A stretch of DNA of 64,000 bases from Natrinema longum (lineage in GTDB: Archaea > Halobacteriota > Halobacteria > Halobacteriales > Natrialbaceae): contig NZ_CP071463.1 of assembly GCF_017352095.1 (NCBI RefSeq), forward strand, positions 2,170,001 to 2,234,000. The letters are read 5' to 3'. Position numbers and translations under genes: made by a program. The notes beneath the pieces are model-generated. The model was not told the DNA's origin and did no database searches. It saw only the letters and a program-made list of their open reading frames with translations. Below are positions 2,954 through 4,092 of the stretch, in pieces (position 1 is the stretch's first letter; every line of letters begins with the position of its first letter).

Positions 2954-3146
2954 ATTTGGAGTACGTGAACAAGTGTGAAAACGATTCGTCTTTCTCGTGC
3001 GACGAGCAATCGTGGATCAGCCGTATCATCTGCACTCTATTGGTCTTGAGGCTTCAACACGGCGTTCAGAGGTGAGACGCGACGGTTTGAGCACCTCCAA
3101 AGACGGCGCGGACCTGCTGTGCTGTCACCTCTCTCAGCCGAGTCGC

Positions 3147-3256
3147 GCGTCGGAGATCCGCACCCGACTACGGATCCCCTCTCACTCGAGTTCGGACTCG
3201 AGGGCGATCCGCCGATCCATGTGTGGACCGTCCACCACGAACGTCTCGGAACCACC
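3147..3256 (-). pseudogene. Duplicated, decayed 3' end of dph6
   Basis: Downstream of dph6 the last ~110 bp of that gene recur in the same orientation. The copy translates as ETFVVDGPHMDRRIALESE, nearly identical to the gene, then diverges. A TGG codon of the gene is TGA here (stop at 3182-3184), and several third-base and amino-acid changes follow, while VRI.DA of the true C-terminus is still readable. No start codon or body precedes it, so this is a 3' fragment, not a gene. See the element that separates it from dph6. Confidence 0.85.
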
Positions 3257-3363
3257 TTTTTCCGCTCGGGTTCGGTCACTTCGTTCCCTCACCCATCGCG
3301 CAAAAATCTGGACCAAAAAATCCCGCTCGTTCGCCGCGCCCTCGCTCACTCGCGGTACGCCAC
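3257..3363 (-). repeat. Spacer element with TTTTTGCGCGA and CCGAGCGGAAAAAG cores, copy A
   Basis: Between the dph6 stop and its duplicated tail, reading on the minus strand, lie a T-run, GATTTTTGCGCGA, a short inverted GCGA/TCGC-type region with GAACGAAGTGACC, then CCGAGCGGAAAAAG directly abutting the tail copy. The same order of motifs separates the M29 aminopeptidase gene from its duplicated tail (55.4-55.56 kb). Nothing here looks coding. Confidence 0.7.
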
Positions 3364-4092
3364 CTACGCTTCGAGGTGCGCGTCCGTGATCCGCACTCGT
3401 CCCCGCGTCCCCTCCCATTCGGGTTCGGACTCGAGGGCGATCCGCCGATCCATGTGTGGACCATCCACCACGAACGTCTCGAACTCGCCACCCTCTCCCA
3501 GGATGTGGACGCCGTACTTCTCGTGGAGCGTCTCGAGTTCCGCGATCGCTTCTCGATCGAGGGTTCGACCGAGCCAGGATTCGTCCAGGCCGTGAGCGGC
3601 GACCTGTATGATCTCGATCTCGAAGCCGGCCTCGAGCATCGCGTCGGCCAGTTCCGCGGGGTCTTCCTGCCAGAGCGGAGCGAAGAGATCACAGCCCAGC
3701 CGGTCACACATCCCCTGGATGCGGCTCGTCTGGTACTCGCTCTCGACGGCTCCCGCGGTGACGCCCGCGATGCCCCCCAGGAGGTCGCGATCGAGGGCCT
3801 CGAGGGCGACCTCGAGGGGCTCGAGTTCGTCGTCGCCCTGCACGCTCGAGTCGGTGGCCGTGTCGGCCGCGAAGTCGTCGGGTTCGACGTCGACCAGTTC
3901 GATGCCGATGCTTTCGGCCGCCAGCGCGGCCAGCTCGGTCGCGGGGACGTGATACATGTACGAGTCGCCTGCGGGATGGACAGTGACCAGTCGCTCGACT
4001 GGCAGCCCCTGCTCGAGGGCCTGATACAGCGCCCACGACGAGTCCTTGCCGCCCGAAAAGAGGCTCACCCACGCGCCGTCTGCATCGCTCAT
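3364..4092 (-). CDS. dph6: Diphthine--ammonia ligase
   Basis: A 242-residue adenine-nucleotide alpha-hydrolase-like enzyme that performs the last step of diphthamide synthesis on elongation factor 2, amidating diphthine with ATP and ammonium. The PP-loop SGGKDSS is at residues 13-19. The family block TAGAVESEYQTSRIQGMCDRLGCDLFAPLWQEDP follows in pieces around residues 125-160, and the tail EGGEFETFVVDGP is typical of Dph6 proteins. Length fits the archaeal family. The last ~110 bp are duplicated downstream. A DUF373 gene follows upstream in the same direction with a 48-bp gap, so the two may be co-transcribed. Confidence 0.92.
   Translation of the reverse strand: MSDADGAWVSLFSGGKDSSWALYQALEQGLPVERLVTVHPAGDSYMYHVPATELAALAAESIGIELVDVEPDDFAADTATDSSVQGDDELEPLEVALEALDRDLLGGIAGVTAGAVESEYQTSRIQGMCDRLGCDLFAPLWQEDPAELADAMLEAGFEIEIIQVAAHGLDESWLGRTLDREAIAELETLHEKYGVHILGEGGEFETFVVDGPHMDRRIALESEPEWEGTRGRVRITDAHLEA

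Follow-up and report, generated by a model that had tools for sequence, protein, structure and literature searches.

Gene 3′ ends are classic sites of integration, at which a duplicated gene tail is produced, and the target duplications of MITEs are a few bp long and of constant length. Amongst the repeats of haloarchaeal genomes, PATEs are short, transposase-free and palindrome-bearing, are related to IS605 and come without target duplication (PMC3119063). The same account covers SMR-A and SMR-B, repeats of ~80–110 bp, also without target duplication, whose mode of mobilisation the source gives as not known (PMC3119063).

The locus considered here lies in a stretch of 64,000 nucleotides of the Natrinema longum genome (the window), in which the 3′ end of dph6 is followed by a spacer and then by a diverged copy of the gene's own tail. 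The spacer, ~70 bp composed of TTTTTGGTCCAGATTTTT, a covarying hairpin and AAAAAGGTGG, is conserved and belongs to a family of short structured repeats that is spread across the haloarchaeal class at gene 3′ ends. The features of the locus are as follows.

3364–4092, minus strand: dph6 (diphthine–ammonia ligase), the host gene, an ORF of 242 aa (NCBIfam TIGR03679).
3372–3481, minus strand: gene-side (proximal) dph6 tail, the copied stretch, identified as a direct repeat.
3320–3363, minus strand: 3′ UTR with the hairpin-like stretch hp1 (CCGCGAG..GAGCGG), upstream of the T-run, from the sequence.
3302–3319, minus strand: conserved 18-mer TTTTTGGTCCAGATTTTT, present without mismatch in 112 of the 292 class genomes.
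3257–3306, minus strand: hairpin hp2, closed by T5:A5, with covarying arms and a fold z-score of −4.27.
3249–3261, minus strand: right end AAAAAGGTGG and the gene-specific junction TTC, the same dph6 junction being found in other species.
3139–3248, minus strand: distal copy of the dph6 tail, 87% identical over 110 bp.

The dph6 product, given as a whole protein, scored 264 bits against NCBIfam TIGR03679 (Dph6_archaeal; cut-off 197). The two tails form an ungapped direct repeat of 110 bp at 87% identity, with a start-to-start spacing of 233, and their 14 differences (gene strand, sites 19, 60, 64, 67, 75, 76, 79, 80, 82, 85, 95, 97, 105 and 106) are unevenly distributed, with 1 in the first 59 bp vs 13 in the remaining 51 (Fisher's exact test, P = 2.3e-4). 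The change at site 19 leaves Asp unaltered (GAT/GAC), and the distal copy carries an early in-frame TGA at 3184–3182 on the minus strand. The recurrence of ~110 bp of the dph6 tail with an early TGA, and the contrast between a first ~59 bp with one silent change and a more diverged remainder, had both been described in an initial annotation of the locus and are confirmed by these values; the interval it assigned, 3147–3363, does contain the spacer and the copy but misses the final 8 bases of the latter (3139–3146). Read along the gene strand, the 123 bases that separate the tails consist of the final 8 bases of the gene, a 44-nt 3′ UTR, TTTTTGGTCCAGATTTTT, a 40-nt hairpin, AAAAAGGTGG and TTC, after which the distal copy begins. 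The window contains the 18-mer TTTTTGGTCCAGATTTTT a single time, and none of 100 shuffles contained it even at 3 mismatches; together with the same arrangement in other genomes, this excludes a chance origin of the spacer. We attach a vanishingly small probability to a simple tandem duplication of the end of dph6 with a chance spacer, or to an assembly artefact: tandem units are indeed present at some loci, but the arrangement is found in dozens of independent assemblies and also at other genes, and the chance expectation of the 18-mer in the window is zero. Recurrence thus refutes both, in agreement with the earlier judgement that a plain tandem slip would not put a motif-rich spacer between the copies.

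Across the family the core TTTTTGGTCCAGATTTTT ... AAAAAGGTGG is fixed, and the sequence of the hairpin between them varies with its pairing kept. All 88 distinct elements have a hairpin closed by T5:A5, the outer arms pair with their own partner at 2.76 of 4 positions, compared with a maximum of 1.97 over 2000 permutations, and the mean z-score of element hairpins against shuffled cores was −3.5; for hp2 of the window (z −4.27), none of 200 shuffles was equally stable. Folded alone, hp1 of the window was not better than shuffles (z +0.5), its stem as drawn requires G.A mismatches, and on the strength of this z-score it is rejected as a significant fold in the window. The arms of hp1 and hp2 repeatedly show tandem G.A mismatches (CGAG opposite CGAG), which are scored poorly by standard folding and may possibly represent sheared G.A or kink-turn-like motifs. 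At some loci the 8-base centre GGTCCAGA, which lies between two T-runs, is swapped in place for inserts of 50–111 nt that look able to fold as hairpins, as seen at argF in G011 vs G016 (L232/L233) and at L264 and L194. Such inserts occur both in Natrinema relatives and in Haloferax, and resemble an optional helix of a structured RNA. Membership of a known structured RNA family was rejected on the absence of Rfam matches, there being none in the window at the gathering score and none around the element at E ≤ 1. Amongst the fetched loci no larger or autonomous form of the element was found, expansions being confined to hairpin inserts of up to 111 nt, and no mobilising enzyme was found.

A pattern search of the window's own genome (G000), allowing up to 3 mismatches, returned 10 element places, five of them flanked by substantial direct repeats: 45 bp at 95.6% identity at ileS, 47 bp at 95.7% at argF, 110 bp at 87% at dph6 and, for the remaining two, tandem units at one further gene. 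With one mismatch allowed, the 18-mer was detected in 41 of 61 relatives, whilst the exact 18-mer was present in 112 of the 292 genomes of the class and in 44 of its 77 genera, the reversed control giving 0 in each search. The named-contig matches listed include Haloferax, Haloarcula, Halorussus, Halococcus, Halorhabdus, Natrinema, Natronococcus and others. At least 12 named bacterial contigs also appear among the matches listed, and these are attributed to chance since none of the 12 contains a complete element.

Host genes of the element comprise dph6, ileS, argF, pheT, etfA, gatB, purH, elp3 and others. NCBIfam models were used to name argF, elp3, gatB, pheT, etfA, purH and an SDR oxidoreductase from C-terminal stretches, and dph6 from the whole protein; scores fell below the curated cut-offs for pheT, etfA, gatB, purH and the SDR gene, as only C-terminal stretches were given and the cut-offs are set for whole proteins. 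The sole matches of the ileS protein were to mupirocin-resistance isoleucine–tRNA ligase models, far below cut-off, and ileS is used here as a provisional label drawn from this weak match plus the sequence. The protein of another host, which we refer to as the ‘VERTPLA’ gene, had no NCBIfam match. The element sites are not an independent sample, as 14 host families were hit repeatedly among the 88 sites that have a long frame upstream. Some of these hosts are common to distant genera, etfA to Haloferax, Natronoglomus and Halovivax and pheT to Haloferax and Natrinema.

The 18-mer was also found in five viral contigs, which provided three usable sites, AT-rich and with no complete element in any of the three. 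Searched with the spacer, plasmid records gave one match (Haloferax alexandrinus, 78.6% over 45% of the query) and phage records zero, and a mobile replicon as the carrier of the element was rejected on these results. The same results bear on the suggestion that dph6 carries the scar of an integrative element, a provirus or plasmid inserted at the gene's 3′ end, with the two tails as attL and attR and the body since lost. A duplicated tail at a gene 3′ end is what such classic integration sites yield. A partial tRNA duplication described at a Haloquadratum prophage (PMC3119063) is a further point in its favour. Against it, the tails differ by gene whilst the element is constant, motif and copy mostly lie 41–69 nt apart, with no larger form in the fetched loci, and the searches gave no phage match, one plasmid match and 0 of 3 complete elements at usable viral-contig sites. 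We consider such a scar highly improbable, and reject it on the variation of the tail with the gene, the sameness of the element and the lack of any larger form seen.

The association between element and tail copy was assessed with the exact sites of loci L036–L199, of which 152 were distinct, 140 had enough flank and 110 were complete (motif, hairpin span and A5GG). A flanking direct repeat (score ≥50) was present at 58 of the 110 complete elements vs 2 of the 30 incomplete ones, and at 8 of the 331 further T-runs that served as a control within these loci, six of these eight being variant elements that had escaped the filter. A looser test (E ≤ 1e-3) gave a repeat at 60 of 113 elements vs 15 of 223 offset windows. 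No tail copy was detectable at 52 of the 110 complete elements. In a GC-rich set of 58 sites, 46 had a frame of 100 codons or more whose stop lay within the repeat or at most 15 nt from its end. The copied length up to the stop is mostly 24–118 nt (median 47), and motif and copy are separated by 0–158 nt, mostly 41–69. The repeated stretch is mostly the host gene's own tail and sometimes runs on through the hairpin to the T-run: amongst the 46 clear cases, the right border of the copy came within 12 nt of the T-run in 16, and in 17 it lay within 5 nt of the stop codon and not at the T-run. In arrays at L062, L110, L126 and L113 and in G063 and G072, the tails outnumber the elements by one (n+1 to n). 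At the ‘VERTPLA’ gene, two tandem units are nearly identical in G000 (L040/L041) and the second has decayed in the other strain (L284), so whole tandem units there are also homogenised or re-duplicated. A coding extension by fusion of element and tail was rejected, since the frame across AAAAAGGTGG, followed by hand, differs between dph6 and ileS.

A dph6 match was obtained in 60 of 61 genomes, and 30 places were fetched; a tail copy was present at 16 of these 30, with an element-like spacer in each (by eye), and a genome outside the fetched set (G029) has three extra dph6 tail matches. Amongst genomes of the same genus, a tail copy was found in 13 of 24 analysed at ileS and in 12 of 25 at argF. 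The junction between element and copy is typical of each gene and common across species, reading GGTGGTTC(C/T)GAGAC at dph6, GGTGGATG(C/T)CGAG at ileS and GGTGGG(C/T)TGTA at argF, the last with a shorter form in G004, G005 and G006. The region past the dph6 tail copy is unusually variable between species, several of which have extra blocks of hundreds of bases, and the downstream flank in the window has no match beyond the tail copy in any of the 29 relatives compared. A second dph6 homologue of 55–60% identity, often on another contig, occurs in G012, G017, G002, G018, G023 and other genomes of the same genus.

Filled and empty sites were found at several genes. Fifteen Haloferax relatives with elp3 were found, and a copy scoring at least 40 was present at 7 of the 13 loci analysed, with at least two types of unit, differing in UTR and tail length, as well as arrays; at the empty site of G067, GCGGCTGTAG is joined directly to CCGACGAAAACACCC, and in G074 the element and a 21-bp tail copy lie between the same two flanks. 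At argF, the flank after the single tail of G002 is that found after the distal tail in G012, G017, G020 and G024. In G246, a second strain of the window's species, pheT and the SDR gene are both filled, whereas G000 and four further genomes of the genus (G003, G013, G018 and G023) are empty at these two genes. The duplicated ~60 bp at pheT in G246 spans the coding tail, the stop codon and the hairpin into the T-run, and the single tail and terminator of G000 match the distal copy of G246. The native downstream flank comes after the distal tail. At etfA, the left part of the element is present in both strains and the tail copy in G246 only. None of these filled/empty pairs is polarised, and loss by recombination between tails is as possible as gain. 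Across relatives, for which the initial annotation had recommended an alignment of dph6, the element is present patchily, and filled/empty pairs at other genes show the block as a unit. Two tails at equal divergence in all relatives, by which an old feature of the locus was to be recognised, are not what is seen. Its reading of the locus as the scar of an event that targets gene ends is upheld in so far as the element stands with a local tail at many unrelated genes and in filled/empty blocks, but the event is not specific to dph6.

The main rival to insertion is an immobile, ancient and functional 3′-UTR element, a terminator or RNA structure passed on by vertical inheritance and homologous exchange, with the tail copy a by-product of hairpin slippage or template switching that conversion maintains. 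We regard this as a possibility of some weight, though not a probable one. The same hosts are found in distant genera, with 14 families hit repeatedly among the 88 sites, junctions are common between species and the hairpin is kept by compensating changes, all of which fit such an element, as does the termination of transcription by T stretches in H. volcanii (PMC7237163). It is at odds with the patchiness seen both within the genus (ileS 13 of 24, argF 12 of 25) and within the species, with the same core after unrelated genes in one genome and with the two or more types of unit, of differing UTR and tail length, at Haloferax elp3; moreover, slippage alone leaves the common core between the copies of different genes unexplained.

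The dph6 tails evolve in concert. The structure of the locus is the same in G246, whose tails differ at 2 of 110 sites vs 14 in G000, and at sites 22, 46, 54 and 91 both copies within a strain agree and differ from both copies of the other strain; no paralog-specific sites were found between G000 and G246. In the 16 genomes that have a copy, 27 gene-tail bases are private, and 16 of these also stand in the gene's own copy. In a tree of dph6 tails, many forks of which are weak, the copy pairs with its own gene in G000, G006, G010, G016 and G034, whilst copies pair with each other in the sister species G007/G026 and G002/G024. The strain-specific bases common to both tails and the pairings in the tree indicate homogenisation at intermediate intervals. 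The 59-bp stretch of low divergence in the window is best read, from these comparisons, as a probable gene conversion tract, and the uneven divergence, since both copies have strain-specific bases at sites 22, 46, 54 and 91, is best explained by partial conversion and not a sign of the event's age. Gene conversion without selection is documented in H. volcanii (PMC4056108).

The reading we favour, with our confidence evenly divided, is that the element is a repeat associated with terminators whose insertion comes with long duplications of the target, and that conversion later homogenises the tails and recombination between them removes the element. Each host gene would have gained the element at its terminator T-run or immediately behind it, by an insertion with duplication of the upstream 60–160 bp, as from two filled-in nicks that far apart, and the gene would stay intact because the duplication extends past the stop codon. 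Conversion would afterwards even out the tails in patches, which may account for the 59 nearly unchanged bp in the window, the distal hairpin would decay later, leaving copies that end near the stop, and tail–tail recombination would cleanly remove the element; spread between species may go by homologous recombination through the gene flanks. Efficient termination of transcription by T stretches is reported for H. volcanii (PMC7237163); the element carries T-runs and is a candidate terminator of this type. Deletion mediated by short direct repeats is documented in Haloquadratum (PMC3119063). The gene-specific junctions common between species at dph6, ileS and argF suggest that most copies are old at their locus, new transposition was not directly seen among the loci compared, and the 17 of 46 copies ending near the stop can be accommodated only if the distal hairpin was lost later or if a different mechanism was at work. 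We also put forward, as an unlikely version, insertion at the terminators of arbitrary genes by copying of the host transcript's 3′ end or of an R-loop, possibly by RNA-templated machinery; the duplication would then start 60–160 nt upstream and stop at the T-run on account of the 3′ end of the released RNA or of the displaced strand, and such insertions would by their nature preserve the gene end and carry long duplications.

The element with its copies of the host's own tail looks like an unrecognised way to insert DNA at gene ends. If true, one family of elements would shape many haloarchaeal gene ends without breaking the genes hit, an answer to the harm that insertions usually do in compact genomes. 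The tail pairs may also naturally report on gene conversion in archaea that are polyploid, with putative tract ends visible in the window, and filled and empty sites within one species make insertion and clean loss testable in Haloferax, where tools exist.

With MITEs the element has in common that these are non-autonomous dispersed repeats, often with a target duplication; their duplications are short, however, whilst that of the element is 24–118 bp, variable and placed across the stop codon, and with respect to the terminal inverted repeats that MITEs share with an autonomous transposon, the complementarity of the element's ends is limited to T5/A5, with no larger form in the fetched loci. 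Integrative elements at gene ends likewise leave the gene intact and its tail present twice, but have an integrase, a body and a fixed site, whereas the element has none of these and takes its tail from whichever gene lies upstream. PATEs are similar in being short, transposase-free, palindrome-bearing repeats of haloarchaeal genomes; with respect to their palindromes near the termini, hp2 is a conserved hairpin and hp1 is not significant in the window, and whilst PATEs lack target duplication, the element is flanked by a direct repeat in 58 of 110 cases and sits at the gene 3′ end. SMR-A and SMR-B are alike in size (~80–110 bp), but unlike the element have terminal inverted repeats and often lie inside other mobile elements. 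Repeat-mediated deletion (PMC3119063) could explain the clean loss of element and tail but does not create the structure. In listings from searches of the open-licence PMC literature, the literal core sequence included, no account of the element appeared. As it has target duplications, which PATEs and SMRs lack, as these are longer and more variable than those of MITEs, and as it is without the body and fixed site of integrative elements, we file it in none of these groups; its behaviour is that of a small, non-autonomous insertion whose duplication is unusually long and preserves the gene.
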